IMG/VR virus record: IMGVR_UViG_3300020192_000026
Coordinates: 1-40,183 of that record
DNA length: 40,183 nucleotides
Origin: a virus
Strand: one strand, 5' to 3'
Under the pieces are notes generated by a model that saw only the letters and a program-made list of their open reading frames with translations, had not been told where the DNA came from and did not search any database. The position numbers were made by a program, and so were the translations under genes. Each line of letters starts with the position of its first letter. Position 1 is the first letter of the stretch. Shown piece after piece: positions 3,060-40,183 of the stretch.

Positions 3060-3115
3060 TCATGCGATAAAGAGGTTCTTTCGAACAAAAAATCATAATT
3101 CAAACTAAAATCAAA

Positions 3116-3298: not shown

Positions 3299-3351
3299 CC
3301 AAAACCAAACTGAAATCGTAAAAATCGAAAATAATTAACTATAATTGTGAA

Positions 3352-4661: not shown

Positions 4662-4693
4662 TAATGTTAAATAAACTTTGTATATATTTATAA

Positions 4694-4921: not shown

Positions 4922-4941
4922 CAACGAAAATACAGCGAAGA

Positions 4942-5304: not shown

Positions 5305-6817
5305 TTTTTTAGATTTTATTCGATACACTAAGCCAGATTATCAGTTTAACTGGCATCACTCGCTATTAATCGACTATTTGCAAAAGTTTATTGATGGCGA
5401 AATTAAGCGTTTATTGGTATTTATGCCCCCTCAGCATGGCAAATCAGAACTTGTTAGTAGGCGTTTGCCAGCTTATTTGTTAGGTAAAAACCCCAAAACA
5501 AAGATAGTATTGGCTTCGTATTCTAGTACATTAGCAAGCTCTTTCAATAGGGATTGTCAAAGGATAATTGACACTTCAGAGTATCATAATGTGTTTCCCG
5601 AGACGTTCCTAAACAGTTCAAATATCGTAACAGTATCAAAGAACTATTTAAGAAACTCCGAAATATTTGAAACGGTTGGACATGGTGGTTTTTTAAAAAC
5701 TGTAGGGGTGGGCGGTTCTTTAACAGGAACTCCTGCCGATATTGCAATTATAGACGATCCAGTTAAAGACAGCATAGAAGCGACAAGTTCGACATATCAA
5801 GTACGTAATTGGAATTGGTATAATGATGTTCTGTTTACTCGTACGCATAATAACAGCCAAATCTTGCTCACGCAAACCCGTTGGGATGAAAACGACCTTT
5901 CGGGATTGCTAATTAAGGCAATGCAAGAGGGGAAGGGAGAGAAATGGACTATACTAAGTCTTCCCGCCATCAAAGAAACTGCAACAAATGAAGGCGATCC
6001 TCGTGAGGTTGGGGAAGCGCTATGGGCAGATAGGCACTCGTTAAGCAAGTTATTAACGGTTAAATCACAATCTATCAGAACTTTTGCAGCATTATTCCAG
6101 CAAGACCCAAAGCCAACCGAAACAGGCGGAGAATTTTATAAACAGTTCAAAATACATAAGCATACTGGTAATTGCGTGTATGATAGTAATCTTGCAATTC
6201 ACTTAACTTTCGATTTTAACGTGAATCCTTATATGTCAGCGTCAATCTGGCAAATATCCAATAAAAACACGTATTGTGTCGGTGAAATCACAGCCAAATC
6301 CCCGAATAATACAACTATGGGGGTATGTAAGGAGTTTATAAGGATGTATCAAGGACATGAAGCAGGTCTATTTATTTATGGAGACCCAAGTGGAATGAAG
6401 CAAGACACCCGTAGTGAAAAGGGATTTAATGATTATCGTATAATTTTAACCGATTTGGCAAAATTTAAGCCTCACATGAGGGTTGCAAAGTCAGCTCCAA
6501 GCGTAGTAGGTAGGGCAAACTTTATCAATACGGTGCTAGAAAAAGAGATTTTTGGTATAAAAATTGAGATAAATACTAAGTGCGTGAATCTTATTGCAGA
6601 TATGGCTTATACTAAAGAAGCATCAGACGGAACTAAGTTAAAAGAAAAGGGAAAATCTCTTGAAAGTGGAGCTACATACGAAAAATGGGGCCATTTTTCG
6701 GATGGTTTTGAGTATCTTATCTGTAGTGCCTTTGCTGCTGAATATACCCAATACCAACAAGGAGGTATTTCTCCACGAATCAACACTGGTAAAACCGCTT
6801 TCAGAAATTCTTTTTAA
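5246..6817 (+). CDS. terL: Terminase large subunit
   Basis: DNA-packaging ATPase and nuclease. The Walker A variant PPQHGKSE is at residues 61-68 and the Walker B strand with acidic pair DIAIIDDP at 165-172. The C-terminal RNase H-like nuclease shows its acidic residues in LTFDFN, IYGDPSG and HFSDGFEY. At 523 aa it has normal length for the group. The start codon at 5246 lies inside the small terminase gene; residues before the conserved segment FLDFIRYTKPDYQF are not needed for the family, so a later start is possible. Packaging type (headful or site-specific) cannot be told from sequence alone. Confidence 0.96.
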   Translation: MHNSEAWLKSKPQSELAKRNFLDFIRYTKPDYQFNWHHSLLIDYLQKFIDGEIKRLLVFMPPQHGKSELVSRRLPAYLLGKNPKTKIVLASYSSTLASSFNRDCQRIIDTSEYHNVFPETFLNSSNIVTVSKNYLRNSEIFETVGHGGFLKTVGVGGSLTGTPADIAIIDDPVKDSIEATSSTYQVRNWNWYNDVLFTRTHNNSQILLTQTRWDENDLSGLLIKAMQEGKGEKWTILSLPAIKETATNEGDPREVGEALWADRHSLSKLLTVKSQSIRTFAALFQQDPKPTETGGEFYKQFKIHKHTGNCVYDSNLAIHLTFDFNVNPYMSASIWQISNKNTYCVGEITAKSPNNTTMGVCKEFIRMYQGHEAGLFIYGDPSGMKQDTRSEKGFNDYRIILTDLAKFKPHMRVAKSAPSVVGRANFINTVLEKEIFGIKIEINTKCVNLIADMAYTKEASDGTKLKEKGKSLESGATYEKWGHFSDGFEYLICSAFAAEYTQYQQGGISPRINTGKTAFRNSF

Positions 6818-6834
6818 TCTTTTTTGAATTATAA

Positions 6835-6864
6835 TTTGTAAATCAAATTAATTGGTTACTTTTG
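6835..6864 (+). promoter_or_regulatory. Bacteroidota-type promoter after terL
   Basis: TTTG at 6835-6838 and TACTTTTG at 6857-6864 with an 18-bp spacer, followed by a short A-rich leader and the ATG at 6886. It should start transcription of the 6886-8074 accessory genes. Confidence 0.55.
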
Positions 6865-6885
6865 TGAACAATTAAACAAAAAATA

Positions 6886-6999
6886 ATGACAGAGTTAGAA
6901 TCGCTAATACTAAAAATATACTACATAATAGTGCCAGTGTACGCAATATTGGTCGTCCACTCAATTATGCAAAAAATTAAATCGGTTAAAAAATCATAA
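6886..6999 (+). CDS. Very small single-helix membrane protein (37 aa)
   Basis: A 37-aa frame that begins 21 bases after a good promoter -7 element. Residues 8-27 (ILKIYYIIVPVYAILVVHSI) form one probable transmembrane helix, followed by a basic tail (KIKSVKK), so the C-terminus should face the cytoplasm. The last 37 bases of the gene are repeated exactly at 7311-7348, without the rest of the gene. Function unknown. Confidence 0.55.
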   Translation: MTELESLILKIYYIIVPVYAILVVHSIMQKIKSVKKS

Positions 7000-7000
7000 A
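6962..7000 (+). repeat. Direct repeat of a gene end, copy 1
   Basis: The stretch from AATTATGCAAAAAATTAAAT to AAATCATAAA (about 38 bp) recurs at 7310-7348. Copy 1 is the true 3' end of the 37-aa gene; copy 2 lies in an intergenic spacer. Confidence 0.85.
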
Positions 7001-7002
7001 CT

Positions 7003-7272
7003 ATGAAAAACCAAAAACAAATAGGCATACTGATTTTAGTCTTACTGTCATGCACGGGGTGTGCAGATGTGACGCCACACGTAGAGACATACGGATTTTG
7101 GCATGGTCTTTGGCATGGATTTATATTCCCTTTGAGTTTTATTGTAAGTTTATTTATGGAAAATGTTGCAGTTTACGCTTGTGATAACAATAGAGGATGG
7201 TATAATTTTGGATTTTTACTTGGTTCGGGTACATCTGTAATAAGGTTTATAATACCAAGCAGCAAAAAATAA
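7003..7272 (+). CDS. Small lipoprotein-like membrane protein
   Basis: The N-terminus has a lipoprotein-type signal: basic start, hydrophobic stretch IGILILVLLS and a lipobox-like LLSC with Cys16, with a second cysteine at 20. The body has YGFWHGLWHGFIFPLSFIVSLF and WYNFGFLLG, which I recognise as a conserved pattern of small proteins in Bacteroidota and Firmicutes whose function is not known to me. A second membrane segment spans about residues 38-54. Exposure at the envelope would suit a role in host-surface change or exclusion of other phages, but that is inference. Confidence 0.7.
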   Translation: MKNQKQIGILILVLLSCTGCADVTPHVETYGFWHGLWHGFIFPLSFIVSLFMENVAVYACDNNRGWYNFGFLLGSGTSVIRFIIPSSKK

Positions 7273-7350
7273 GAGGATGGAAAAAATAATTCAATACACT
7301 TTAAGTTGTAATTATGCAAAAAATTAAATCGGTTAAAAAATCATAAATTC
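7271..7350 (+). pseudogene. Mosaic of two duplicated gene fragments
   Basis: Bases 7271-7303 repeat the first bases of the gene at 7790 (AAGAGGATGGAAAAAATAAT and onward through CACTTTAA), and 7310-7348 repeat the end of the gene at 6886. Joined, they give a short frame starting at ATG 7276 that stops early. This looks like the scar of a gene whose middle was lost after tandem duplication, and shows that gene ends recombine in this accessory block. Confidence 0.65.
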
Positions 7351-7377
7351 AATTGACATACACTTATAATTAAAACT

Positions 7378-7785
7378 ATGCAAAAATACAGAATGTGGAA
7401 TCAAACCACAATAAAAACAGATAGAGGCACGTATATCCATGATATTGCAATGGTTATGTCATGTTTAACACAACAAATGTTGTTTGATGAAAGCCCAGAA
7501 AACCCACTTGGGCATAACCACATTGGTGACGGAAGTAGATTTGCCCAATATACGGGATTTAAGGACAAGAACGGTAGGGAGATTTACGAAGGTGATGTTA
7601 TAGGTGATTGGACTGATTGCGATGGCATAATGAAACAAAGCAAATACACTGTTTTTATGGATGCAGAGCATGGACAGTGGATGCTAGACTATGTTGTTAA
7701 CCAAAAAAGGGTGTGGGCAGTGCCGTTATTTAGTGAACTGCGAGATTATGAGTATGAGGTAATTGAACAAAACGCTAAACTTTAA
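7378..7785 (+). CDS. YopX-like phage protein
   Basis: Matches the YopX pattern, a family widespread in phages and prophages with no settled function: RMWN at the N-terminus, YTGFKDKNGREIYEGDVI around residues 59-76 as the core signature, and a C-terminal WAVPLFSELRDYEYEVIEQN resembling the usual E-v-IGNIYEN ending. At 135 aa it has normal length. Its stop lies just before the next ATG (7790), so it is translated together with the small gene that follows. Confidence 0.85.
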   Translation: MQKYRMWNQTTIKTDRGTYIHDIAMVMSCLTQQMLFDESPENPLGHNHIGDGSRFAQYTGFKDKNGREIYEGDVIGDWTDCDGIMKQSKYTVFMDAEHGQWMLDYVVNQKRVWAVPLFSELRDYEYEVIEQNAKL

Positions 7786-7789
7786 GAGG

Positions 7790-8074
7790 ATGGAAAAAAT
7801 AATTCAATACACTTTAAAAGGAAGCTTTTGCCAAACAGTTATAATGCCTTCGGACTCTCGAATAATTGATATTCAAATTAATAATTTAGGGGTTTTAACG
7901 ATGTGGGCTATTTGCGATACTTCCACCGAAGAAATTGAGGTTAAAATAAACAAGTACGCTTCAGGGTATGTATTTAAAGACAATAATGTAAAAGATGTTT
8001 ATATCGCCACTGTTATCGCCAATGTTCAAGAAAACAGAATTGCATGGCATTTCTTTATGAATCACGAAATATAA
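7790..8074 (+). CDS. Small conserved phage protein (94 aa, DUF7352-like)
   Basis: The sequence begins MEKIIQYTL and contains VIMPSDSRIIDIQINNLGVLTMWAICDT, a pattern shared by small phage proteins with an l-P-x-g-a-x-i-l segment followed by a tryptophan-containing strand; I assign it tentatively to DUF7352. I use the ATG at 7790 rather than the longer frame starting at 7763, because the first bases of this gene are duplicated at 7271 starting just before the same ATG, and because it follows directly on the stop of the YopX-like gene. Function unknown. Confidence 0.68.
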   Translation: MEKIIQYTLKGSFCQTVIMPSDSRIIDIQINNLGVLTMWAICDTSTEEIEVKINKYASGYVFKDNNVKDVYIATVIANVQENRIAWHFFMNHEI

Positions 8075-8083
8075 CTCGATGTA

Positions 8084-8100
8084 AATAATTCCTTTTAGCA
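8084..8100 (+). repeat. 17-bp direct repeat flanking the HTH gene, copy 1
   Basis: AATAATTCCTTTTAGCA is identical to 8566-8582. The two copies bracket the HTH gene and its promoter region, so this 480-bp block may be an inserted module or share one regulatory site at both ends. Confidence 0.8.
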
Positions 8101-8117
8101 AACAAGACTACAGAAAT

Positions 8118-8162
8118 AACTGTTTCGACTGGTTTGACCGATTCGACTGGTTTGACTGGTTT
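8118..8162 (+). repeat. 9-bp tandem repeats
   Basis: Five units in a row: AACTGTTTC, GACTGGTTT, GACCGATTC, GACTGGTTT, GACTGGTTT. There is no ORF through it. GC content is higher than its surroundings. It could be a protein-binding array or simple slippage. Confidence 0.8.
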
Positions 8163-8193
8163 ACCTGTCGGTCGTTTCGGGCTTAAATTAACG

Positions 8194-8332
8194 CACTAAA
8201 ATAGTGTTATTTTTTAGCTACCTAACCCATTGATTTTCAGCATATTAAGGCATGTATAAGCAAATATACAAACATACAGTTAATTAAATCATTAATTATC
8301 AAGTAGTTAATGCTATTTTAGTGTATATTTGC
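8194..8332. promoter_or_regulatory. Divergent promoter/operator region upstream of the HTH gene
   Basis: TATATTTG at 8324-8331 is a good -7 element for the + strand gene. GCAAATATAC at 8260-8269 is its exact inverse (GTATATTTGC, 8323-8332) and could be a minus-strand -7. CACTAAAATAG at 8194-8204, part of the palindrome CACTA-AAA-TAGTG, is the exact inverse of CTATTTTAGTG at 8313-8323, which abuts the + promoter. Paired operator sites about 118 bp apart would permit looping. No minus-strand ORF of useful length lies to the left. Confidence 0.55.
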
Positions 8333-8353
8333 TCATATCTAATAAAAAAAAAT

Positions 8354-8536
8354 ATGGAAAATTCAGATTTCAGATTCATGCCAATACTAGAGTTATTCGC
8401 CAAGAGGATAATATCTAAGCCTACATTTTATGCACACGTACGAAGCGGTAAAATTACCATGTATAAATTAGGTGACCGCTCTTTCGTAGACAAAAAGGAG
8501 TTTGAAGCCTCTTTTGAAAAAGTATCGATGTCATAA
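8354..8536 (+). CDS. Small helix-turn-helix DNA-binding protein (excisionase/AlpA-like)
   Basis: A 60-aa protein with the layout of the winged HTH_17 family: LFAKRIISKPTFYAHVRSGKITMYKLGDRSFVDKKEFEASF, where the S-KPTFYAHVRSGKI part is the helix-turn-helix and YKLGDRSFVDKKEF the wing and last strand. This family includes phage excisionases and AlpA-type regulators. I use ATG 8354, after the A-run, because the longer frame from 8321 overlaps the promoter -7 element. It is surrounded by palindromes, so it may regulate itself. With no integrase in the window, a regulatory role is more likely than excision. Confidence 0.75.
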   Translation: MENSDFRFMPILELFAKRIISKPTFYAHVRSGKITMYKLGDRSFVDKKEFEASFEKVSMS

Positions 8537-8565
8537 ACGAGTTCCTGCACCAAGATGCGGTAATT

Positions 8566-8625
8566 AATAATTCCTTTTAGCATAATTTAATGATTACTTT
8601 TGTAAAAGTTGTAATTATGCTAAAA
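8566..8625 (+). promoter_or_regulatory. Promoter enclosed by a 13-bp perfect inverted repeat
   Basis: TTTTAGCATAATT at 8575-8587 and AATTATGCTAAAA at 8613-8625 are exact inverses. Between them lies TACTTTTG (8595-8602), a -7 element for the structural operon starting at 8633. The left part is also the second copy of the 17-bp repeat (8566-8582). The core TTTAGCATAA recurs at 12781 and 15394, before other late genes. Confidence 0.65.
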
Positions 8626-8632
8626 ATAGGAT

Positions 8633-9514
8633 ATGTATTTAAGACCGATTGACTACCTTACTTTTATTCAAGATGCACAACGAGCGCAAATTGTAGGCAA
8701 TAATGATAGCGTGCGAATAGTCGCTGAGCAAACAGCACAAGAAGAAATGCTTAGTTATCTGTCGCAAAAATATGACACTGAGCGAGAATTTAGAGACTTG
8801 AATATTTACAATCCAAACGTATCTTATAAGGCACTTGACAGAATTTATCTTGATGGTTCGACATGGGCTGCAAGTTCTTACAATGCAAACACAATAATTA
8901 TACACATCGGTTTGGCTTACATTGCACTAGTCAATACGACTACAAGCCCACTAGACCAAGTAAGCGATTGGTTTTATTTAGGTAAACAGTACGATATGTT
9001 TTACGCTAAACTACCTAAGCCAGAGTTTAACTACAAAAACAACTACACTTTTAATGATGAGGTTTTTTGGAAAGATAAAACTTGGGTAGCAAACCAAGGC
9101 AGTAGGGCGCAGTCGCACTTTGGCAATATACAAGATGCCTACAGAGAAAATATAGGCTTATCAAACGTAGCACCGACCGATTCAGGCAATCAGCATTTTG
9201 CCTATTGGAAAACACCAACCGACTACGCAGTCCCAACAAATACACTCCCAACAAATCTAAGTTTTTGGACTTCTGGAGATGGTCGTTCGCAGCAATTAAA
9301 GATGTACTTAATTTTCATTACTATATTCAGAATCGCTCGAAGAATCGCACCAAACAACGTCCCCGCACGCTATGAAGCTGATTATAACGAAACCATCGAG
9401 TGGCTAAAAATGGCTGCAAAGGGAGAAATAACAGCAAATTTGCCTTTAATTCAACCTAAACAAGGGCAAAGGGTACGATTTGGGGGGATGGTTAAACACG
9501 TTAATTTCTACTAA
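8633..9514 (+). CDS. Head-tail connector, gp36/DUF1320-like, with an insertion
   Basis: The two ends match the DUF1320 (Mu gp36-like) connector pattern: YLRPIDYLTFIQ and VAEQTAQEEMLSYLSQKYD at the start, then IFRIARRIAPNNVPARYEADYNETIEWL and AAKGEITANLPL at the end. The usual family is about 140 aa; this protein has 293, because some 100 residues (roughly 90-210, rich in aromatic residues and asparagine) lie between the halves. The insertion has a W-x-K/W-x-x-N pattern like surface-exposed virion domains. It heads the operon with the portal, only three bases before the latter. Confidence 0.72.
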   Translation: MYLRPIDYLTFIQDAQRAQIVGNNDSVRIVAEQTAQEEMLSYLSQKYDTEREFRDLNIYNPNVSYKALDRIYLDGSTWAASSYNANTIIIHIGLAYIALVNTTTSPLDQVSDWFYLGKQYDMFYAKLPKPEFNYKNNYTFNDEVFWKDKTWVANQGSRAQSHFGNIQDAYRENIGLSNVAPTDSGNQHFAYWKTPTDYAVPTNTLPTNLSFWTSGDGRSQQLKMYLIFITIFRIARRIAPNNVPARYEADYNETIEWLKMAAKGEITANLPLIQPKQGQRVRFGGMVKHVNFY

Positions 9515-9517
9515 AAA

Positions 9518-11053
9518 ATGAATCAATTACAAAAAATAGGCACAGGAATTAGAACCGCTGCCAAAAACTTTTTAAATGTAGGCACGACTTACAAGGAAAA
9601 AAGCCCGAAAAACATCAATTCTTATCTCTCGAAAACGCAAATGTTTAGAGAAAGAATAGATTTGCAAGGGTTTAAAGAAGCGTTAAATGAGGCAGAAAGA
9701 CAAATATTGCCTTACAGGGTAAAGCTCAACAAAGTGTACAATCAGTGCATTTTAAATGACCATGTTTCTTCTTGCATAAAGAGAAGAACTAGCCTTACAA
9801 CCTTAAAAAACTTTCAAATAGTAGACCAATCTGGCAAAGAAAATGAAGTAGTTACCAAAATGTTTACTAACAAGGGCTGGTTTAAAGACTTTATGAGGTA
9901 TGCTTTGGAAGCACAATATCATGGTTATAGCCTCATTCAGTTGGGCGATATTGAAAAGGGCGAACTAAAAGATACTACAATTGTTAGGAGACGAAACGTA
10001 AGCCCAGACAGGACCATGTTTTCGAATATTGAGTATATGCCGGGCGGTTTTAATTTTATTGAGGATGAAGAATTTGCAAAATGGAGCGTCTACATTAAAA
10101 CTCCAAGCGACATAGGAGAGTCAATTTGTGGGTATGGACTATTGCTTAAAGTAGCATTGTTGGAGATATTTCTGAGGAACAACTTAACGTTTAATGCTAA
10201 TTATGTAGAACTATTTTCGCAACCTATCCGATGGGCTAAGACCGATAAACTAGAGGGTGCTGAATATGATAGCTTAGAGGCTTCTATGCGTGATATGGGT
10301 AATAGTGCCTATATTATCACGTCTATGATGGAGGAAATTGAGCTATTAAATAATAATGGAGGTGGTGCTGGATTTAAAGCTTATGAATCTTTTCAGTCCA
10401 GATTAGAGGGAGGCATAACTAAGTACATACTAGGACATTCGAGTGCATTAGATGCCGTGGCAGGCAAATTAGGAAGCAGTGATGATATTTTAAAAGCACT
10501 TGACGATTGCGAAAAAGAGGATGCGCAGTTTATGGCTATGATTGTGAATGATATTCTTTTTGATAAGTTAAGAGGTTTAGGGTACAATATACCCTTAGGT
10601 TTAACTTTTCAGTTTAAAAATGACAAAGAGGTATTGCAGGCACGTAAAGCGGAAAACGATATAAATTTGGTTGAGGCTAGCGTTTATAAGACAATTTTAG
10701 AGGCAGGTGGCACTCCAGATTGGGAAATGTTTACAGAAAGAACGGGCGTAAAAATGGCTACGGCAGGAGAAGATTTAATCGACAATGGGGTACCCGTAAA
10801 ACAAGATATTGAAGCTGAAGCAAGGGCATCATTAAGGGGGAGTGTCGGTGGTGTAACGGGAATATTGAGCTTACAAGCGAGTGTTAGTCAAGGTATTACA
10901 TCTTTTGAGGCAGCGGTTAGTTTGCTTGAAATCGTTTACGGCTATGATACGGAGTCGGCTAAAATGATTTTAGGACAGCCTAAGCCTGCACCAGCATTAC
11001 CAACAGGGCAGCCTGCAAAAATAAAAGAAGCGTTAAATAAATTGTATATTTAA
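9518..11053 (+). CDS. Portal protein (DUF935, Mu gp29-like)
   Basis: Predicted dodecameric portal through which DNA enters the capsid. Typical DUF935 parts are ILNDHVSSCIKRRTSL near residues 76-91, GYSLIQLGDI near 140-150, the long IRW-x-K region with EGAEYDSLEASMRDMGNSAY, and ITKYILGHSSALDAVAGKLGS near 300-320. At 511 aa the length is normal. It is followed without a gap (the stop and start overlap at 11053) by the MuF gene, the classic Mu-like order. The C-terminal 80 residues are alanine-rich and helical. Confidence 0.93.
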   Translation: MNQLQKIGTGIRTAAKNFLNVGTTYKEKSPKNINSYLSKTQMFRERIDLQGFKEALNEAERQILPYRVKLNKVYNQCILNDHVSSCIKRRTSLTTLKNFQIVDQSGKENEVVTKMFTNKGWFKDFMRYALEAQYHGYSLIQLGDIEKGELKDTTIVRRRNVSPDRTMFSNIEYMPGGFNFIEDEEFAKWSVYIKTPSDIGESICGYGLLLKVALLEIFLRNNLTFNANYVELFSQPIRWAKTDKLEGAEYDSLEASMRDMGNSAYIITSMMEEIELLNNNGGGAGFKAYESFQSRLEGGITKYILGHSSALDAVAGKLGSSDDILKALDDCEKEDAQFMAMIVNDILFDKLRGLGYNIPLGLTFQFKNDKEVLQARKAENDINLVEASVYKTILEAGGTPDWEMFTERTGVKMATAGEDLIDNGVPVKQDIEAEARASLRGSVGGVTGILSLQASVSQGITSFEAAVSLLEIVYGYDTESAKMILGQPKPAPALPTGQPAKIKEALNKLYI

Positions 11054-11784
11054 TGGACTACTCAGAGTCGCAAATCGAGGCACTTTTAGATAGTATTTGG
11101 GCTGGCAAAACAAATGTAAAAAACTTGCCTTTGGGCTTATACGAGGCGATTGCAGTGTACTTAGTCAAGGGCGTCGATTTAGGCTTTAATACAGGCAAAA
11201 CCAAGATTATTGATAGCATACTACTAGAAGAATTAAGGCTCAATACGTACCTCTTTGCTGGAGCCAAAACATTTAACTATGTTTTATCAGCACAAATTCT
11301 AGTTGATGAGCAAAGATTAATTGGCAAAAAAGAGTTTATAGAATTGGCACGAACTCAGTACGATTTACACAATGATACATGGCTAAAGGCTGAATATGAC
11401 ACAGCTATTGGGCAGGCACAAACCGCTAGAGAGTGGAGCGACATCAAAGAATTGGGATTGGAAATGGTGGAATATGTTACCGTAGAAGACCCCAATACAG
11501 ATGAGGCGTGTAGAATAAAAAACGGTGTAATAAGAAGCGTAAACGACCCATTCTGGGATACCGAAAGCCCATTAACGCATTATAATTGCAGGTGCTTAAT
11601 AAGGGGCGTTTATGAGGGTAAAGAAACTCCAATACCTAAAAATCTAATACCAAATCAAAGTATTTTCGCAGGTAATCCGGGTAAGGCAGGCGAAATATTT
11701 AACAACAAGCATCCGTATTTTGCTGAAATACCAAATCAATATGGGAAATTAGCTAAAGAAAATTTTAACCTACCATTACCATGA
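11053..11784 (+). CDS. MuF-like head morphogenesis protein
   Basis: Minor head protein of the SPP1 gp7 / Mu gpF family, associated with the portal and with early capsid assembly. The diagnostic segment is near residues 155-185: VTVEDPNTDEACRIKNGVIR, then PLTHYNCRCLIRGVYEG, with the paired cysteines of the family. The 243-aa protein is the short type with no toxin domain at its C-terminus. It overlaps both the portal gene and the next gene, so this is a tightly coupled cluster. Confidence 0.92.
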   Translation: MDYSESQIEALLDSIWAGKTNVKNLPLGLYEAIAVYLVKGVDLGFNTGKTKIIDSILLEELRLNTYLFAGAKTFNYVLSAQILVDEQRLIGKKEFIELARTQYDLHNDTWLKAEYDTAIGQAQTAREWSDIKELGLEMVEYVTVEDPNTDEACRIKNGVIRSVNDPFWDTESPLTHYNCRCLIRGVYEGKETPIPKNLIPNQSIFAGNPGKAGEIFNNKHPYFAEIPNQYGKLAKENFNLPLP

Positions 11785-12230
11785 AACAAGGATTTGGTGA
11801 TACGTTTAAAAAAAAGCTTGAGGCGTTCAATGCACTCAAGCAAAATCTGCCTAAGCTGTTAGGCACGGAAGCAAAAAACAACTTCCAAGACAATTTCACA
11901 AAACAAGGCTTTGAGGGGGATAAATGGACTGAGGTGCAACGTAGAATTGAAGGAACAAACGCGTATAAATACCCAAAAACAACAGGCTTAGGGCGTAGAA
12001 CTAAAGCGATATTATCGGGTACGGGGAAACTCAAAAAAGACATTCAAGTGAAAACCACCTCTTTTGGTAAAACAATTGTTGGTACGAGTTCTTTGACTAG
12101 CAAATACGCAACATTCCACAATGAAGGGGAAGACAATATACCACAGCGCCAATTTATTGGCAGGTCAAAGAATCTTGAAAAGAAACTAAAACACATTATA
12201 AATACAGAACTTAAAAAACTATTCAAATGA
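11781..12230 (+). CDS. Virion morphogenesis protein (Mu gpG-like)
   Basis: Predicted tail-completion or morphogenesis protein of the Mu gpG family. The pattern is an N-terminal helical part with NNFQDNFTKQGFEGDKWTEVQRR, then LSGTGKLKKDIQVKTTSFGKTIVGTSSLTSKYATFHNEGEDNIPQRQFIGRS, where Y-A-x-x-H-N-E-G and the P-Q-R-x-F-I-G turn are the signature. Length (149 aa), strongly basic character and position between MuF and a tail-completion candidate all agree. Confidence 0.88.
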   Translation: MKQGFGDTFKKKLEAFNALKQNLPKLLGTEAKNNFQDNFTKQGFEGDKWTEVQRRIEGTNAYKYPKTTGLGRRTKAILSGTGKLKKDIQVKTTSFGKTIVGTSSLTSKYATFHNEGEDNIPQRQFIGRSKNLEKKLKHIINTELKKLFK

Positions 12231-12742
12231 AAGCACTCTATCAAGCAATATTAACTAAGCTATCTGAGCTAGTTACAAATGATACTATCAAATATCGCAA
12301 TGTGTGGAATAATCAGCATCGAAGAATTTTAGAAGATAAGCCCGACTTTTACCCATTCAATTTTCCAGCAGTTTTTGTTGAGATACTAAACCCTGTTAAT
12401 ATTATTCAGCTAGGAGTTGATGAAACGGGGCGAAACGGCCAGCTATACGATAGATTAGTAGTTAGATTCCATTTGTTGCATCAATTATTTGATAGTGGAG
12501 ATGGCGATTTGGATAAAAATTTAGAAGTTTATGATACCAAAGGAGCGTTGAATGACATTTTTAATAAGTGGCAAACAGCAGGTTCAAGTACATTTATGCG
12601 AATTTCAGAGGAGCAAGACTTTGACCACGGCAATATTTCGCATTATATTCAAGATTACTTGACTAGCTTTGTAGAGTTTCCAACGGATATTTCGATTGCA
12701 GCATTGCCTATTGATATTACAGGTCAATGGAATTTTGACTAA
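12227..12742 (+). CDS. Tail-completion/terminator candidate
   Basis: No family is recognised with certainty. The 171-aa protein resembles tail terminator or joining proteins in length and layout: FNFPAVFVEILNP near residues 42-54, a central strand-rich part (LYDRLVVRFHLLHQLF) and a C-terminal FPTDISIAALPIDITGQWNF. The position after gpG and before baseplate genes, with a four-base overlap to gpG, supports that role. Other uncharacterised head-tail adaptors cannot be excluded. Confidence 0.55.
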   Translation: MKALYQAILTKLSELVTNDTIKYRNVWNNQHRRILEDKPDFYPFNFPAVFVEILNPVNIIQLGVDETGRNGQLYDRLVVRFHLLHQLFDSGDGDLDKNLEVYDTKGALNDIFNKWQTAGSSTFMRISEEQDFDHGNISHYIQDYLTSFVEFPTDISIAALPIDITGQWNFD

Positions 12743-12828
12743 ATAAATAGACTTAGATTTGCATGTAGCCAAATTTAAAATTTAGCATAAACCAACAAAA
12801 GCGTTGTAGTGTCATGTTATTTTGTGGC
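12743..12828 (+). promoter_or_regulatory. Spacer with promoter-like element and TTTAGCATAA motif
   Basis: TAGATTTG at 12754-12761 looks like a -7 element with TTTG at 12734-12737 upstream (16-bp spacer, shorter than usual). TTTAGCATAA at 12781-12790 is the motif also found at 8577 and 15394. It breaks an otherwise overlapping gene cluster. Confidence 0.4.
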
Positions 12829-13686
12829 ATGGCACGAACCACAGCGCAAATAAAGGCTTTAATAGTCGCAGCAATCCAAGCTGACACTACTCTTTCGGTA
12901 AAATTAACGTCTCCAAGCTCGGTTGCTATTTGGAACTTATTTGCTTTTGTCGTAGCCCAATCAATCAACATTTTAGAGCAACTTGTTGACCTTTTTAAAG
13001 TCGATATTGAAGAAATAGCTTTGCGCAGCTATTACGGAACATCGCTTTGGTGGAAGCAACAAATGTTGAAGTTTCAATATTCCGCAACAAATCCTCAGGT
13101 CATCCAAATAATTAATAATGTTATCGGGTACCCTATCGTTAATACAGATTTAAACCTAATTACTACGTGTTCTATCACTAGGTCTGAGGGTGCAATAATT
13201 ATCAAAACAGCGCAGGGCACGATTGGAGCATATTTTCCATTGACTAGTCTAATGTTGACAGCTGCACAAAACTATGCTGAAGCAATTATGCCCTCTGGAG
13301 AAACACCAACCGTAATCTCTATCAATGCAGATAAATTATACATCCAAGCGGACATTTATTTTTTAGGCCAATTCGTAAGCACAGCTGTTAAGGCAAATGT
13401 GATTTTGGCAATCAATACCTACTTATCTGATATAGATTTCAACGGAACCATTTTTGTGGCAAAAATTCAAGATGCGATACAGGGCGTTTTGGGCGTTAAG
13501 GATGTTGTAATTAAAAACATAACAGCCCGCAGCGATGCTCAAACAATCGCAACGGGAACAAATCTTGTCCTGAATGGCACGGTAACTAATGCAAGCAGAT
13601 TATACTCAACTTTTGCAGGGTATATTATTGGCGAAACAACAGCCTCATTCACGTTAAATGACACCTTAACCATGATAGCGGAATGA
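12829..13686 (+). CDS. Baseplate J-like protein
   Basis: Predicted baseplate wedge protein of the gpJ / Mu gp47 class in its Bacteroidota form. The N-terminus MARTTAQIKALIVAAIQAD and a following helical part (LFAFVVAQSINILEQLVDLFK) precede a strand-rich section and the characteristic region KANVILAINTYLSDIDFNGTIFVAKIQDAIQGVLGVKDVVIKNI (about residues 186-230). I start at ATG 12829 because the residues in front of it in the longer frame add nothing conserved. A four-base overlap joins it to the next gene, which is in the gpI position. Confidence 0.8.
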   Translation: MARTTAQIKALIVAAIQADTTLSVKLTSPSSVAIWNLFAFVVAQSINILEQLVDLFKVDIEEIALRSYYGTSLWWKQQMLKFQYSATNPQVIQIINNVIGYPIVNTDLNLITTCSITRSEGAIIIKTAQGTIGAYFPLTSLMLTAAQNYAEAIMPSGETPTVISINADKLYIQADIYFLGQFVSTAVKANVILAINTYLSDIDFNGTIFVAKIQDAIQGVLGVKDVVIKNITARSDAQTIATGTNLVLNGTVTNASRLYSTFAGYIIGETTASFTLNDTLTMIAE

Positions 13687-14195
13687 GTTTTTACGATGTA
13701 AATTATGATTTGGTTGTTGATAGGATTTCACCACCATACAAAAGGAAAAATATATTTCTGGCATATCTCAATGCCTTATTGTCTCCCTTACAATCGTTAC
13801 ACATTGGGCTTTTTACAACATACAGAAATGATGTTTTAAAACGGCTACAGTATAATAGTCAAAGACTAAAATTAGAGCAAACTTTAAACGAGGTTTTCAA
13901 CAATGGAAATCCTTTTCGGATCAATATTTCACAAAGTCAACAACGGTTATTTGGTTTTAAGTTTTCGGAAAATTCAGTGATAAAATACGGATATAAAGCT
14001 ACAGAAGTAATCGCCCCGTCCCTAATTCTTTACGGCTCAAAATACAATGAGGTTGCATTTGTTGATTTTACAGTTAACATTCCGAGCAACATTTCTTCTT
14101 TTAACCCAAACTTTGAACTCTCAAATTTAACAGCCTTAGTGAATGCTTTAAAGTTTGTGGGCAAAAGATACAACACAATTATTTATACGATATGA
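13683..14195 (+). CDS. Baseplate protein in the gpI position
   Basis: A 170-aa protein directly after the J-like gene and directly before a fibre gene, the position of tail protein I (Mu gp48-like), which links baseplate and fibre. The sequence has KRKNIFLAYLNALLSPLQSLHIGLF near residues 20-44 and then a strand-rich half; I do not see a decisive family motif. Both junctions overlap by four bases, so it is co-translated with its neighbours. Confidence 0.6.
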   Translation: MSFYDVNYDLVVDRISPPYKRKNIFLAYLNALLSPLQSLHIGLFTTYRNDVLKRLQYNSQRLKLEQTLNEVFNNGNPFRINISQSQQRLFGFKFSENSVIKYGYKATEVIAPSLILYGSKYNEVAFVDFTVNIPSNISSFNPNFELSNLTALVNALKFVGKRYNTIIYTI

Positions 14196-15178
14196 AAAAA
14201 TTATTAACAAGTTTTACGGGTGGTCAACCAATTTTCTATCCCGATGATTTAGAACATATTCAAATAGGGCTACTTGAATCTATCGTTGAAATTGTAAAGA
14301 CAAATCTAGTAACGCCCACTGATCCAAACATTTTGAACGGTACTGTGGTAACTGCATCTGCTGTAGGCATCTCAACTACTGCGGGTTCAATCTATTGGAA
14401 TGGCGAAGTTTATTTGGTCGATGCGCAAAGCTTAGTAGGTTTTGGTCAGCTTTATTGGCAAATTGTAGAAACCTTTTTGGCTTTTAATCCCGTGCAATTT
14501 GCGGATGGGAACAACAGAAATATCCATGCGATTAGAAAGTTAGGTATTACTTACACAGATCCTCTTGCAAATGGGTTTTTACACTCAAATTTAAAAATAT
14601 TCCAAAGTATTGCTTCTGTAAGTGCATCTATTGCGGCCGAGCAAAATCTAAGATTAGTAAACGACAATTTAGAGATTGCAACAAGGTCTAGTGCAGACGC
14701 AAACTTACAAGCGAATATTAACTCACAGACAGCCATTAGGCTTGCACAAGACACCGCTTTACAGGTAAATATTGCTGCCGAAGCAGCCTCACGAGCATCT
14801 GCTTTATTGCTAAAGATGGATATTGCAAAAGTAGAGTATTTGTTAAGTGATATTGTATCTGTAAGTGTTGGCACATTAATAAACACGACAGAGATGTTTA
14901 TTACACGTAGCCCTAACGGCTTCGTTCATTGGCAGGGCAGGTTTATCTACGAAGCGTCTGGCATTCCCGTATTGACAATAACAGGGGCCTTTAGCTCTTT
15001 ACGGCCAAACCGATCGATTGACCTGTTAGGCTATATATATTCTGGCGTGTTAAATGTATTGGTAAGAATAAATATAACAACAACGGGAGAGATAACATTT
15101 ACAGCCCCTTTTGGAATTGGCAACCTAGCAGGAACCAGCGGAATAATATATTTCAACGTGTCATATTACAACACCTAA
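14192..15178 (+). CDS. Tail fibre protein (proximal cluster)
   Basis: A 328-aa fibre-like protein. The N-terminal 130 residues are a baseplate-attachment type domain (LLTSFTGGQPIFYPDDLEHIQIG, SIYWNGEVYLVDAQ). Residues about 145-205 form an alanine-rich heptad region (AAEQNLRLVNDNLEIATRSS, ADANLQANINSQTAIRLAQD), which should be a trimeric coiled coil. The last 120 residues are strand-rich (FVHWQGRFIYEASGIPVLTI) and probably form the distal head. It ends the first late cluster; its stop overlaps that of a minus-strand ORF. Confidence 0.8.
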   Translation: MKKLLTSFTGGQPIFYPDDLEHIQIGLLESIVEIVKTNLVTPTDPNILNGTVVTASAVGISTTAGSIYWNGEVYLVDAQSLVGFGQLYWQIVETFLAFNPVQFADGNNRNIHAIRKLGITYTDPLANGFLHSNLKIFQSIASVSASIAAEQNLRLVNDNLEIATRSSADANLQANINSQTAIRLAQDTALQVNIAAEAASRASALLLKMDIAKVEYLLSDIVSVSVGTLINTTEMFITRSPNGFVHWQGRFIYEASGIPVLTITGAFSSLRPNRSIDLLGYIYSGVLNVLVRINITTTGEITFTAPFGIGNLAGTSGIIYFNVSYYNT

Positions 15179-15330
15179 TCGTCTATACATTCGGGGTGTT
15201 TTAGATGATAAGACACCACTCTTCGGAGATAATCAGCCTCTTTTTCATTTCGAAGTAAGAGTTTCCAAGATTTTAACTGCCCCCAATTAAGGTAAGTACA
15301 TAATCTGCGTTTCATCACGTCCGATGCCAT
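15175..15330 (-). CDS. Small convergent ORF beside the repeat array (51 aa)
   Basis: A 51-aa minus-strand frame from ATG at 15330 that stops at 15175, inside the stop of the fibre gene. It is basic and helical (MKRRLCTYLNWGQLKSWKLL then RNEKEADYLRRVVSYHLKHP), a composition that would suit a DNA-binding protein, but no known motif is certain. Its upstream region is the repeat array at 15349-15440, divergent from the protease gene. That arrangement is what one expects of a regulator controlling a divergent operon, but the size leaves doubt whether it is translated. Confidence 0.45.
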   Translation of the reverse strand: MASDVMKRRLCTYLNWGQLKSWKLLLRNEKEADYLRRVVSYHLKHPECIDD

Positions 15331-15348
15331 GTTGTGCTTAATTTAAAA

Positions 15349-15440
15349 GTTAGACACGTCTAAAATAAATGTTAGACAAAGCTAATAAAAAAGTTTAGCA
15401 TAAACTTTAAAAATGTTTAGACAAATATAAATATTTGTAC
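15349..15440 (+). promoter_or_regulatory. Four repeats at exact 22-bp spacing before the capsid operon
   Basis: GTTAGACA at 15349, GTTAGACA at 15371, GTTTAGCA at 15393 and GTTTAGACA at 15415 begin exactly 22 bp apart, two helical turns. The first is part of the palindrome TTAGAC-AC-GTCTAA (15350-15363), the third of GTTTA-GCA-TAAAC (15393-15405), and the fourth runs into the perfect inverted repeat ACAAATAT-AA-ATATTTGT (15421-15438) directly before ATG 15441. This looks like cooperative binding sites for an activator or repressor of late transcription. Confidence 0.65.
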
Positions 15441-16535
15441 ATGAATTTCGAATACACTGTTAATGTCGAATCTGATGAGCCAATAATGCTTATTAACAAG
15501 CATATCGGGATAGACGAGGAAGGCAATGAGGGTATTATGGGTGCAAAGTTTGAAAGAGAACTTTTGCAGCTCGATTCTATGGGTAAAAAACGTGTTAATG
15601 TTTACATAAATAGCACGGGCGGGAGCGTAATCGATGGGATGAGTATCTACCAATCTATTATAAACTCCAAAGTATCGGTCGATACTTATTGTACAGGAAT
15701 TGCAGCATCAATCGCAGGTGTAATTTTCCAAGCTGGCAAAAATAGAATCATGGCTGATTACGGTGTCATCATGATGCACGATCCGAGCGGTGGTTCAAAA
15801 AAAGCATTAGGGGCTTTTAAGGATGCGATTATCACAATGATTCAAAGGGGCTGTGGAATGTCAAACGAGGCTATTTCGGATTTAATGAAGCGTGAAAGTT
15901 GGATAATGGCAAATGAAGCAAAGGAGTTGAACCTTTGCACGGTCGTAGAAAATTCTACTTTTAAAAACCTAGACACATCGAATATCACAATGGCTTGGAA
16001 AGAAGCTAATAAAATTTTGAACAAAACTTTACCAATAAAAACAAAATCCAAAATGGAAGATTTAAAAAAAATAAACAACAAACTAGGGCTTAATGAAGAA
16101 GCGTCTAGCGAATCTACTTTGAAAGCAATTGAAGACGTGATGAACGCCTCAACACACATGAAAGGCAAGCTAAAAGAAATGGAGGATGCCTTAAATGCTA
16201 AAAAAATTGAGTGTGAAAATGCTGAAAAAGCATACAACGAGTTCAAAACCAAGATGGACGATAAGGACAAAGCAGAGAACGAATTTAAAGCTGAAAACAT
16301 GGTTTTGGATGCTATCAAAGTTGGAAAAATTAAAGCCGAAGCCAAAGACAGTTGGAAAAACCTTGCAGTTATTGACTTTGAAGGCACAAAAAATGCTTTA
16401 GAAGGAATCGCAGGAAACGCAAAAGCTGTAAGAATTACAGATGCAGTAAGCACTGCCGCTGATCCGTTTTCAGGAGCGACATCAGCATCAATGGAAATGG
16501 CTAGAATTGCTAATAAACTAAAATTTAAAATTTAA
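15441..16535 (+). CDS. ClpP-like prohead protease fused to scaffold
   Basis: Capsid maturation protease with a C-terminal scaffold. The N-terminal 180 residues are ClpP/S14-like: VYINSTGGSVIDGMSIYQSI (54-73), nucleophile Ser90 in TGIAASIAG and His113 in IMMHDPSGG; WIMANEAKELNLC follows the usual A-x-E-A-x-x-L-G-L position. The acidic third residue is not assigned. Residues about 195-310 are charged coiled coil (KIECENAEKAYNEFKTKMDD) typical of scaffolds. I start at ATG 15441 rather than TTG 15435. It precedes the major capsid gene by 12 bases, as in other phages using this fusion. Confidence 0.9.
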   Translation: MNFEYTVNVESDEPIMLINKHIGIDEEGNEGIMGAKFERELLQLDSMGKKRVNVYINSTGGSVIDGMSIYQSIINSKVSVDTYCTGIAASIAGVIFQAGKNRIMADYGVIMMHDPSGGSKKALGAFKDAIITMIQRGCGMSNEAISDLMKRESWIMANEAKELNLCTVVENSTFKNLDTSNITMAWKEANKILNKTLPIKTKSKMEDLKKINNKLGLNEEASSESTLKAIEDVMNASTHMKGKLKEMEDALNAKKIECENAEKAYNEFKTKMDDKDKAENEFKAENMVLDAIKVGKIKAEAKDSWKNLAVIDFEGTKNALEGIAGNAKAVRITDAVSTAADPFSGATSASMEMARIANKLKFKI

Positions 16536-38229: not shown

Positions 38230-38433
38230 ATGAAAAACATCACAGATTTGAGAAACGAATTAGCGACAAATTACACTGAAATCAAAGCCGATAAAATGGC
38301 ACTTGACAAAGCAAAAGAATTAGCCAACACAGCAGGGAAAATGCTAACATCGCTGAAGGTCGAAATTGAGTACAACAAACTCAATTGTATTAAAACCAAA
38401 ATCGACTTCTTAGAGCAAACACCAGCGAAATAA
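38230..38433 (+). CDS. Small coiled-coil protein (67 aa)
   Basis: A 67-aa helical protein (NITDLRNELATNYTEIKADKMALDKAKELANTAGKMLTSLKVEIEYNKLN) with heptad spacing and one cysteine. Small coiled-coil proteins of this kind occur in the early operons of many phages and are uncharacterised. It sits three bases after the previous gene and three before the next, so it is surely co-transcribed. Confidence 0.7.
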   Translation: MKNITDLRNELATNYTEIKADKMALDKAKELANTAGKMLTSLKVEIEYNKLNCIKTKIDFLEQTPAK

Positions 38434-38436
38434 ATT

Positions 38437-38910
38437 ATGGATTACAGATTGGATCTCTACAATGCAGTAGAAAACTTTCAACAGCAAATGACTGATGGCG
38501 ATGCTCTGTTTATTATTTGCAATACCAAACAGGGAGACCTATTAGTTGGGTTGGATGTGGGTATTAATATCATATCGTCTGTACGAGCTAATGATAATGG
38601 CTATGTCAATATTGAAAATAAAGAGCCAAAAATCGTAAATGAACGGGCGAAAAGAATAGTTTTAAATATGGCAATAAACATACTTAGGACGGATGTTAAT
38701 TTGTTAAAGAAGTTTGATGTCGCTCGGGCTTCTCCGCTTTTAGAAGAACTTACACAAGCCCTTGAATTAGCGAAGTCTAAATTAAAAGTAGCTGAACAAG
38801 CATTGAATGATATTATCAAATGGGATGATGATTTGGAAGATGAATGGGGAGACCCAGGAGAAAGAGCTAATTCAGCTTTAGAAAAGATTATGATTTTGGA
38901 CGGTTTTTAG
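38437..38910 (+). CDS. Hypothetical protein at the phage/cassette border (157 aa)
   Basis: A 157-aa protein with a globular first part (DALFIICNTKQGDLLVGLDVGINIISSVRANDNGYV) and a helical C-terminal part (ELAKSKLKVAEQALNDIIKWDDDLEDEWGDPGERANSALEKI), the latter typical of small phage early proteins. It is the last gene of the early operon, and an attC-type site starts six bases after its stop. It may therefore be the first gene of the array (itself part of a cassette) or the gene next to which cassettes were inserted. Confidence 0.72.
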   Translation: MDYRLDLYNAVENFQQQMTDGDALFIICNTKQGDLLVGLDVGINIISSVRANDNGYVNIENKEPKIVNERAKRIVLNMAINILRTDVNLLKKFDVARASPLLEELTQALELAKSKLKVAEQALNDIIKWDDDLEDEWGDPGERANSALEKIMILDGF

Positions 38911-38916
38911 CCTTGC

Positions 38917-39012
38917 ACATAACGTTTTGCGGCTACCCGAAGGAGGAGAAATCGAAGCACCTACCCAAAATTAACCGCAGACCCCCCCTTTTAAGGGTAG
39001 GTGATGTTACCA
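38917..39012 (+). repeat. attC-type site at the border with the early operon
   Basis: TAAC (38920-38923) and GTTA (39006-39009) pair at the ends; CTACCC (38933-38938) pairs with GGGTAG (38995-39000) as the inner L boxes. The spacers (GTTTTGCGG and GTGAT) are unequal, giving extrahelical bases. The centre contains a further CTACCC and a C7 run. It is less perfect than those at 751, 1132 and 39304 but has the same plan. Confidence 0.68.
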
Positions 39013-39058
39013 CCAGTGCTTTTTAACGGAATTATTAACAATTTAAAATAAAAACAAT
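39013..39058 (+). promoter_or_regulatory. Conserved cassette leader
   Basis: CGGAATTATTAACAATTTAA and AATAAAAACAAT lie before the ATG, a near copy of 1208-1241 and of 39450-39476. This shared leader supports the cassettes having a common origin or common requirements for translation. Confidence 0.5.
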
Positions 39059-39298
39059 ATGAACGCAAAAGAAAAAGCAAGTGAAATGGTTGAAAAATAC
39101 CTAAACACAATTATTCACTTTCCATTCATTGATACAGAAGATGGTAATTGCATTGGAACTGGATATATGACACATAACTCGGCTGTGAGATGTGCAATAA
39201 CTTCAGTTGAAGAAATAATAAATCATTGCTCACAAGTCGAACCATATTTAGGAGTTGATTTTTGGAATGATGTCAAGTCGGAGTTGCAGTCCTTTTAG
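39059..39298 (+). CDS. Cassette-encoded hypothetical protein (79 aa)
   Basis: The family is not recognised. The 79-aa protein has NAKEKASEMVEKYLNTI at the start and HNSAVRCAITSVEEIINHCSQ in the middle, with three cysteines. The K-A-x-E-M-V-E-K-Y opening followed by an A-x-x-C-A-I-x-x-V-E-E-I-I segment is a pattern I have seen repeatedly in small cassette or phage proteins of Bacteroidota. It lies between two attC sites with the conserved leader, and its stop is six bases before the next R'' box: a textbook cassette. Confidence 0.82.
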   Translation: MNAKEKASEMVEKYLNTIIHFPFIDTEDGNCIGTGYMTHNSAVRCAITSVEEIINHCSQVEPYLGVDFWNDVKSELQSF

Positions 39299-39303
39299 GG
39301 TTG

Positions 39304-39438
39304 CCGCTAACGTTTTGCGTGTATAAGAAGTGGCGGAATTAAACTACAAAACTAACTTGAAGGCAATGCAGTTAAATATAGCACAAATGTTTATAAATAG
39401 CACTAAACCCGCCATTTTTTATACACGATGTTATATGC
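39304..39438 (+). repeat. Complete attC-type site
   Basis: The left arm 39308-39336 and right arm 39409-39433 are inverted repeats: TAAC with GTTA, GTGTATAA with TTATACAC and TGGCGG with CCGCCA, with unpaired GTTTT on the left arm and single mismatches. GTTATATGC (39430-39438) is the same R' end as at 840. The centre is about 72 nt, so the whole site is near 130 bp, comparable with long attC sites such as the Vibrio cholerae type. Confidence 0.86.
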
Positions 39439-39476
39439 TGTTTTTCTTTCGGAATTAACAATTTAAATAATAACAA

Positions 39477-39692
39477 ATGACACACAAAGAATTTCAAAAT
39501 CAAATCAAAGCAATTCCAAACTTAGAATTAGCTGAAAAGGCTCAATCTGCATTGAGTAAATTATGCTCAAGTGGTGGTGGAAGTTTCACAATGACAGTTC
39601 CGCCAAGATTAGATGATACTGATATTATCTTATCAGAGATTATAACTCGTTTTGAGTTGCTTCATTTGGAGGCTGTTCAAAATAGCATATAA
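39477..39692 (+). CDS. Cassette-encoded hypothetical protein (71 aa)
   Basis: The family is not recognised. The 71-aa protein has a helical start (HKEFQNQIKAIPNLELAEKAQSALSKLC), a SSGGGSFTMTVPPRLDDTD segment that looks like a flexible loop, and a final helix (ILSEIITRFELLHLEAV). The helix-loop-helix plan with a P-P-x-x-D-D-T-D turn is typical of small stand-alone cassette proteins. It follows a complete attC and leader, and its stop (TAA 39690-39692) forms part of a half attC site. Confidence 0.8.
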   Translation: MTHKEFQNQIKAIPNLELAEKAQSALSKLCSSGGGSFTMTVPPRLDDTDIILSEIITRFELLHLEAVQNSI

Positions 39693-39715
39693 CACCTGTA
39701 TATGCGCAAGTTTTT
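39685..39715 (+). repeat. Half (collapsed) attC site, copy 3
   Basis: GCATATAAC then ACCTGTATATGCGCAAG and GTTTTT, the same as the half-sites at 405 and 1569 except G for A at 39704. It lacks a right arm. TTAAAAAATCATAAATT follows, shared with copy 2 (1600-1616). Confidence 0.55.
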
Positions 39716-39764
39716 AAAAAATCATAAATTTAGCAATCAATGACAACACATTAAATAAACGAAA

Positions 39765-39977
39765 ATGTCAAGTACAGAATTATTTAAAAAACATTTTGGC
39801 GACCAATCAGCATCGGTTGACTTGAAACACCCAAACACAGAAAAGTTCTTTAGTGAACTAAATTATGAATGTTTATTAGAAGATAAACAAAGGGATTCTT
39901 TAAAAGAGTTAAAAAAAATACAAGCAAACCGGATGAGCGATGGGAATAGAAAGCACAATGACAGTAAAACGGAGTGA
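39765..39977 (+). CDS. Cassette-encoded hypothetical protein (70 aa)
   Basis: The family is not recognised. The 70-aa protein has STELFKKHFGDQSASVDLKH at the start and KKIQANRMSDGNRKHNDSKTE at the end. Its codons 43-58 are the second copy of the 50-bp repeat found in the 37-aa gene at 1630, in the same frame. It overlaps the next ORF by 20 bases. The pairing of an acidic/helical first gene and a small second gene could be a two-gene module such as a toxin-antitoxin pair, but no known family is visible. Confidence 0.68.
   Translation: MSSTELFKKHFGDQSASVDLKHPNTEKFFSELNYECLLEDKQRDSLKELKKIQANRMSDGNRKHNDSKTE
39891..39940 (+). repeat. 50-bp direct repeat, right copy
   Basis: Matches 1642-1691 at 49 of 50 positions. 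See the left copy for the two readings (duplicated segment or attachment-site core). Confidence 0.8.
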
Positions 39978-40146
39978 TGCAATAGCAATGCTTGAGCAAA
40001 AAAGAGTGGAAGTTTTTAAAAATGATTGTCAAGAAAGGTTGGCGGCTTTGCTATACGAACATAGAGAAAGTATTTTTGAGAACTACAATGTAGTCGAAGA
40101 TGATTTTGTAGGAGATGAATGGGAACGATGGAAGTTATACTGGTAA
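39958..40146 (+). CDS. Cassette-encoded hypothetical protein (62 aa)
   Basis: The family is not recognised. From ATG 39958 the protein is MTVKRSDAIAMLEQKRVEVFKNDC and onward, ending in VVEDDFVGDEWERWKLYW. It is acidic at the C-terminus and helical. An upstream in-frame ATG at 39940 is possible. It overlaps the previous gene by 20 bases, and its stop (TAA 40144-40146) lies in the TAAC of the last attC-like left half, so it ends the array at the contig edge. Confidence 0.65.
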   Translation: MTVKRSDAIAMLEQKRVEVFKNDCQERLAALLYEHRESIFENYNVVEDDFVGDEWERWKLYW

Positions 40147-40183
40147 CCAGTGCGTAGGCAATTTTATTTTATTACATTTAGGT
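40138..40183 (+). other. Left half of an attC-like site and contig end
   Basis: TAAC (40144-40147) follows the last ORF as in the other cassettes, then CAGTGCGTAGGCAATTTTAT to the end. The final nine bases CATTTAGGT are the same as the first nine of the window. Joining the ends gives an attC-like order (TAAC ... GTTAGGC), but the arms pair poorly, so circular joining is suggested and not proved. Confidence 0.45.

Follow-up and report, generated by a model that had tools for sequence, protein, structure and literature searches.

In the canonical integron, a cassette is inserted as a gene-attC unit with the crossover at G|TT (the bar marks the junction). The integrons of Spirochaetota (Treponema) carry a true IntI in reverse orientation. 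Searches of the IntegronFinder type require the IntI domain (PMC9668308), and a single complete integron, that of Salinibacter ruber, has been reported from the Bacteroidetes (PMC9024848). Cassette arrays that lack an integrase were described in 2023 on the virulent phages Polaribacter P12002L, Pseudoalteromonas PH101, and Tetrasphaera TJE1 (Qi et al. 2023, PMC9892861). No other study was returned when we searched the literature, with incomplete coverage, for integrons encoded by phages or jumbo phages. The initial annotation of the DNA analyzed here knew of no well-described attC array on a tailed Bacteroidota phage; P12002L is such a case and was already published.

A cassette array at the ends of a tailed phage genome

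The window, by which we mean the whole stretch of 40,183 bases that was analyzed, is a complete IMG/VR record (G000). It carries terminase, portal, tail sheath, and tape-measure genes, from which we take the virus to be a contractile-tailed phage. Array genes occupy both ends of the contig and are all on the + strand, with the right-hand part located 3' of an early-region gene (38437-38910) and the left-hand part 5' of a DNA-modification block (2412-4661). This block lies directly past the array and consists of a C5-methylase fragment (2412-3059), a ParB/methylase-like gene (3352-3924), and a glucosyltransferase-like gene (3888-4661). Exactly nine identical bases (CATTTAGGT) are present at 1-9 and 40175-40183, an overlap below the length of the usual end-repeat call. 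The location of the array at both ends together with this short overlap is compatible with, and does not prove, a circular or permuted genome cut within the array. We also observed a sequence of ~45 nt (AGGGATTCTTTAAAAGAGTTAAAAAAAATACAAGCAAACCG) at both 1640-1684 and 39891-39935, 3' of two attI-like junctions and with one copy in a truncated context, that is probably a duplication of the array end. An early-region gene (38230-38433) has a 60% identical relative at 5082-5276 of L175, a contig binned as a Bacteroidetes MAG. Since this relative stands ~30 nt 5' of an attC, the window gene may itself be an old cassette gene.

An array split between two contig ends with an overlap of just 9 bp could be host sequence that was joined to the phage through mis-assembly, and the strict attC pattern is common in Bacteroidota genomes too. 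However, both parts of the array pass unbroken into phage genes of the same strand. In addition, attC cassettes lie among the early genes, 5' of TerL, in related phages recovered from other samples (L005), and attCs occur together with TerL on many independent viral records. Mis-assembly is therefore very improbable.

Candidate attC sites were gathered from viral and genome contigs using the pattern TAACGTTTTGC-N30-60-GCTGTTAT and the palindromic ones were retained; matches in the genome contigs arose partly by chance, with approximately one third being non-palindromic. In the viral contigs, this pattern, the looser of two that were tried, matched at least 119 stretches, and the exact one, CATATAACGTTTTGC-N20-49-GTTATATGC, gave zero matches. 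A covariance model (R1) was then constructed from 42 attC sites of diverse sequence, none of which was taken from the window. In the arms of these sites 97.4% of cells were paired and there were 106 two-sided changes versus 32 in shuffles, figures that are inflated by the prior selection of palindromes.

Three sites of the window, all on the + strand, scored above background with R1. The background-level covariance scores that the initial annotation had named as a refutation were thus not observed with this purpose-built model. The best is at 1135-1195 (54.9 bits, E 1.4e-10), followed by 754-844 (45.3 bits, E 2.2e-8); these correspond to the palindromes reported at 1132-1199 and 751-848, and both are full attCs. 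The site reported as weaker at 38917-39012 is real as well. R1 places it at 38920-39010 (28.7 bits, E 1.3e-4) with a degenerate 3' side, and it starts the right-hand array 9 bp past the stop codon of the phage gene at 38437-38910. A fourth, long site of ~130-135 nt (39304/39308-39438, + strand) had been described as complete. It has the TAACGTTTTGC...GTTATATGC boxes and a long imperfect hairpin, with an inverted repeat (39318-39341/39404-39427) that is 83% complementary, and R1 matched it only in part (E 1.2) because its length of 135 nt exceeds the model. Outside the array no R1 match in the 40 kb was below E 0.4, and the match at E 0.44 was the antisense of the site at 1135. The further partial sites that had been proposed proved to be of two kinds. 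Those at 13 and 147 are true half sites on the + strand: a 3' half with the start box GTTAGGCGATGCCC (13-27) at the contig's left end, which forms a direct repeat (D4) with 500-520 and 1190-1210, and an attC 3' half (TTTTGGTTAGGTGCTGTTATAAGCC; 131-156) that has no 5' half and is identical over 31 nt (132-162) to an attC end in L074. The others are junctions of the form TAAC|ACCTGTATAT[AG]CGCAAG at 412, 1575, and 39690.

When folded as single-stranded DNA, the site at 1132-1199 was more stable than shuffles (z -5.6) and the other three sites had z values of -0.8 to -1.5. The case for attC is carried by the R1 scores and the pairing of unit ends rather than by single-strand stability. Three of the four hairpins are thus not clearly stabler than shuffles, and the palindromes are intergenic and on one strand, as could be said of ordinary hairpins or transcription terminators between small phage genes. 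Such hairpins would not account for the conserved TAACGTTTTGC...GCTGTTAT ends or for arms that covary across unrelated contigs, and they are contradicted by the pairing of unit ends and by the exchange of whole units at fixed junctions described below. We consider this explanation to be very improbable and the window sites to be almost certainly attC.

A CALIN contains at least two attCs on the same strand within a few kb and no integrase. The window has such attCs at 754-844 and 1135-1195, with a further one at its opposite end (38920-39010), and a PF00589 search of the whole 40 kb (E<=10) found no tyrosine recombinase. Judged by these sequence features and by the arm pairing below, the array holds as CALIN-like, with attC cassettes but no integrase on a tailed phage, and the integron-type cassettes recognized in the initial annotation stand.

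Cassette units and their orientation

The start and end arms of five units were compared over 16 positions and were complementary at 14 (147/412), 13 (501/754), 14 (840/1135), 12 (1191/1575), and 14 (39430/39690) of these. In all five units the start box pairs best, or tied-best, with its own end box. Pairing between start and end arms is a requirement of the circular form of a cassette and thus supports the identification of these units as cassettes.

The units contain six ORFs of unknown function on the + strand. In the right-hand part, ORF 39059-39298 (79 aa) has relatives in other viral contigs that bear attCs, including one with 63.5% identity that starts 40 nt past an attC in L300 (part of record G020, where TerL was also matched), and weaker ones in L125, L153, L048, L073, and others. 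The second ORF there is 39477-39692 (71 aa), where the box at 39430 pairs with the box ending at 39693 (14/16). The left-hand part contains ORF 181-402 (73 aa; complementary arms 146-161/401-416, I1), ORF 460-756 (98 aa; the start box lies inside it at 501 and pairs with the box ending at 757, 13/16), ORF 876-1130 (84 aa; arms 840-854/1124-1138, I2), and ORF 1242-1565 (107 aa; 1191 pairs with the box ending at 1578, 12/16). No window cassette ORF had a significant Pfam match. The array DNA had no real match in 50,697 named-phage records, with the sole match being 21 nt long and at chance level. The leader of ORF 1242-1565 (1187-1238) is 96% identical to sequence in L336, and the attC at 754-844 is 90-96% identical over ~90 bp to attCs of the unrelated viral contigs L292, L334, L358, L336, and L165. 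Among these are attCs located beside recombinases, with 91-92% identity in the phage contigs L334 and L358/L284 and 90% in L336. Common attCs and leaders combined with differing genes are the picture given by a cassette pool.

Exchange of cassettes was followed not in the window, which lacks a close relative, but in L005, an attC-bearing related phage found by a TerL search (its TerL is 63% identical to that of the window), and in L016 and L007, which are near-identical to L005 (91-95%). At a first site, L016 and L007 are empty and read GTGATAAC|GGTCAGC, and L005 has a unit of ~385 bp in which a full attC is followed by an ORF and then by CATTGGTTATAAC. At a second site, three different cassettes lie between the identical flanks TAAC| and |TCATCGCTACACGC, where L005 has an ORF of 111 aa, L016 has a methylase-like gene, and L007 has a methyltransferase-like one. 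Every gene at this second site has a palindrome at its 5' side and a TAAC at its end. The empty and filled states of the first site and the three-way difference at the second indicate that the mobile unit is attC-gene-TAAC with its junction at TAAC|. Thus, the same kind of site and the turnover that the initial annotation suggested looking for in related phages were both found, and the units of the three phages do not follow the canonical plan of gene-attC inserted at G|TT. We regard the reversed unit and the TAAC| junction in these relatives as very likely. The geometry of the boxes is canonical in reverse complement; it is the orientation of the gene that is turned round. A canonical insertion or deletion at G|TT was also tried for the L005 unit and did not produce the observed empty allele. 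The exchange targets in L005 and L016 are unlike the recombinase-linked phage attI described below, with matrix scores below -8.

In the window array the first element is a full attC directly 3' of a TAAC (38920), and at 39690, 1575, and 412 the closing TAAC gives way to sequence that is not attC. These edges agree with a unit of attC-gene-TAAC, which, with a junction at TAAC|, is probably the cassette unit of the window array too. Because the cassettes read in the same direction as the phage genes, their expression probably depends on the phage operon. Among 59 cassette proteins that we scanned, most had no match, and those that could be named were mainly DNA methylases plus one Lar-type restriction-alleviation protein. 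These contents would fit a role in counter-restriction in this small sample of 59 proteins, and the DNA methyltransferase cassettes of related arrays are probably counter-defence genes.

Compact recombinases in large phages and Bacteroidota

Among 46 viral records, five that bear attCs hold related recombinases of 265-268 aa (~267 aa), which are encoded on the same strand as the attC and 1-4 kb downstream of it. The TIGR02249 cut-off was exceeded in none of the 46 records. Below this cut-off the profile does not tell IntI from Xer, and all 14 control genomes matched; sub-threshold matches are therefore uninformative, and linkage and a tree were used in their place. Used by itself as a query against viral contigs, the recombinase yielded 146 relatives, and 80 loci were retained, some of which are near-duplicates. 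Around these loci R1 found 57 attCs in 34 loci. All 57 are on the recombinase strand and 56 are upstream of it, with the lone downstream attC located 7 kb past the recombinase in L391.

A conserved TAAC|TATTATATAT occurs ~40-70 nt 5' of the recombinase start. Of 78 loci, 74 had the looser motif TAAC/CAAC-N3-6-TATA no more than 130 nt upstream of the recombinase, versus 3.8% of background windows. In 20 pairs of loci the 50 nt to the right were at least 86% identical (100% in 8 pairs), but the 50 nt to the left were merely 18-58% identical. With a right flank that is conserved within phage groups and a left side that changes abruptly, TAAC|TATTATATAT looks like an attI beside its recombinase. 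These phage loci resemble canonical integrons in that a putative attI adjoins the recombinase and cassettes change there, on the 3' side of the array. The window has attI-like junctions only, with no attI next to an integrase. They follow the cassette-end TAAC on the + strand at 1575-1595 (ACCTGTATATACGCAAG; the right edge of the left-hand array), 412-432 (ACCTGTATATACGCAAG), and 39690-39710 (ACCTGTATATGCGCAAG), and rank third, fourth, and fifth among the 367 TAAC sites of the window with a weight matrix of phage attIs. Junction scores were 3.5 and 1.2 versus a mean of 14 for real phage attIs. The three junctions are copies of one sequence, so this evidence counts about once and their likeness to attI is modest.

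Viral contigs frequently contain this type of attC, and in large phages it is accompanied by a recombinase that the phage itself encodes. The module of attC array, attI (TAAC|TATTATATAT), and 267-aa recombinase on one strand was found in large viral contigs (L333-L412), for example L333, L336, L356, L367, and L386. All viral records are metagenomic; 14 of 50 recombinase records, which reach sizes of 362 kb, contain a terminase gene, and in several cases TerL, recombinase, and attC are on one record. The recombinase retains its catalytic residues and is ~45 residues short where IntI has its additional domain. This domain, near patch III, is lacking in both the phage enzymes and the Bacteroidota array enzymes. 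The best relative of the phage enzyme with a solved structure is the XerC-like 4a8e (5.6e-43), followed by IntI4 2a3v (1.5e-37). We infer that the enzyme is active and think it likely that the compact recombinase acts on these cassettes.

Bacteroidota genomes with this attC type (Fluviicola, Pedobacter, and others) have enzymes of 264-296 aa near their arrays. The chromosomal loci L323 (Fluviicola; 2800-15611), L326 (248-3500), L327, L328, L331, and L332 have a TAAC|T..TTATA-like site that separates the array side from the enzyme, which faces the array; two of these six bacterial sites score below zero with the phage attI matrix, so the likeness is partial. In a tree of these enzymes, those of the phages make up a single clade (100/100) that groups with the Bacteroidota array enzymes (87/80), apart from IntI and XerD; the long branches leave the deeper branching order uncertain. 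By this tree, the Bacteroidota array enzyme is the sister of the phage recombinase. Palindromic attCs with the same end motif were also present in contigs binned as Methanophagales/Methanoxibalbensis archaea (L169, L183, L185, L192, L225, L272, L274), which are probably the published archaeal cassettes.

These observations bear on a rival account of the window, namely that canonical host cassettes were captured once as a plain CALIN and were mobilized with canonical polarity by an ordinary IntI of the host. Five of six phage attCs tested worked with IntI1 and CALINs on virulent phages are known (PMC9892861), and the window has no integrase of its own. Against this, the units inserted in L005, L016, and L007 are attC-gene-TAAC and not gene-attC, and among 47 genomes with the attC pattern one had an IntI above the curated cut-off and 41 others had sub-threshold tyrosine recombinases only. 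We consider capture through a host IntI improbable.

Proposed mechanism and comparison with known integrons

Our preferred reading, which we hold with good confidence, is that the window carries an integrase-less array of a Bacteroidota/phage integron with reversed cassette polarity, the enzyme of which would be supplied in trans. It builds on the attC sites, the arm pairing, the exchange at fixed junctions, and the linkage of attC, attI, and recombinase that sequence comparison demonstrated above. A tyrosine recombinase from the host's integron or from a co-infecting large phage would join circular cassettes, with attC-gene-TAAC as the mobile unit, to TAAC| targets in the rightward operon of the phage. 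With this unit the genes would share the direction of the phage transcript and point to the attI/recombinase side, opposite to canonical cassettes. In the large relatives the same type of array would end at the attI TAAC|TATTATATAT with the gene for the likely enzyme immediately after it. The phage would gain a replaceable set of small accessory genes. We lean somewhat toward service in trans by the compact recombinase or its host sister enzyme in the case of the window.

On a broader scale, we have fair confidence that Bacteroidota and their phages share a distinct class of integron with a compact recombinase, an attI at the 3' end, and genes that point to attI. Giant phages would encode complete copies, and small phages such as that of the window would carry arrays that lack an integrase and are served in trans. 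Because they demand the IntI domain, current integron finders would see only CALINs of such a class. If the reading is correct, some phages run their own platform for cassette exchange rather than picking up stray cassettes, viruses as well as bacteria may use integron gene shuffling, and direct tests of cassette flow between phage and host become possible. The reading would also account for the near-absence of detected complete integrons from Bacteroidota despite their attC arrays, and would provide a natural enzyme without the IntI domain for asking what that domain does.

Within the incomplete coverage of our literature search, neither the compact enzyme with its 3' attI, nor the reversed unit, nor integrons of giant phages had been reported. 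The reversed unit, the compact recombinase with a 3' attI in large phages, and the sister enzyme and site in Bacteroidota thus look new. The window alone is a further case of the known integrase-less arrays of phages: like the CALINs of Qi et al., it has attCs and cassettes on a tailed phage with the integrase absent, and methyltransferase cassettes occur on their side in P12002L and MW202573. Unlike the related loci examined here, the virulent phages of that study were not reported to have a phage-borne integrase, an attI, or a reversed unit.

Canonical integrons (IntI, class 1, Vibrio type) resemble this system in having a tyrosine recombinase, an adjoining attI, palindromic attCs, one-gene cassettes, and paired end boxes. 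They differ in that the recombinase here is 267-300 aa long without the IntI additional domain, attI lies at the 3' end of the array with genes directed toward it, and the junction is TAAC| in the orientation of the gene. Treponema integrons likewise have an unusual integrase orientation and, by description alone, are set apart by a true IntI. Among XerC/XerD and the archaeal Xer-like proteins (4a8e, 5hxy), 4a8e is the nearest structure, and the XerD of Bacteroidota forms a clade separate from the phage and array enzymes.
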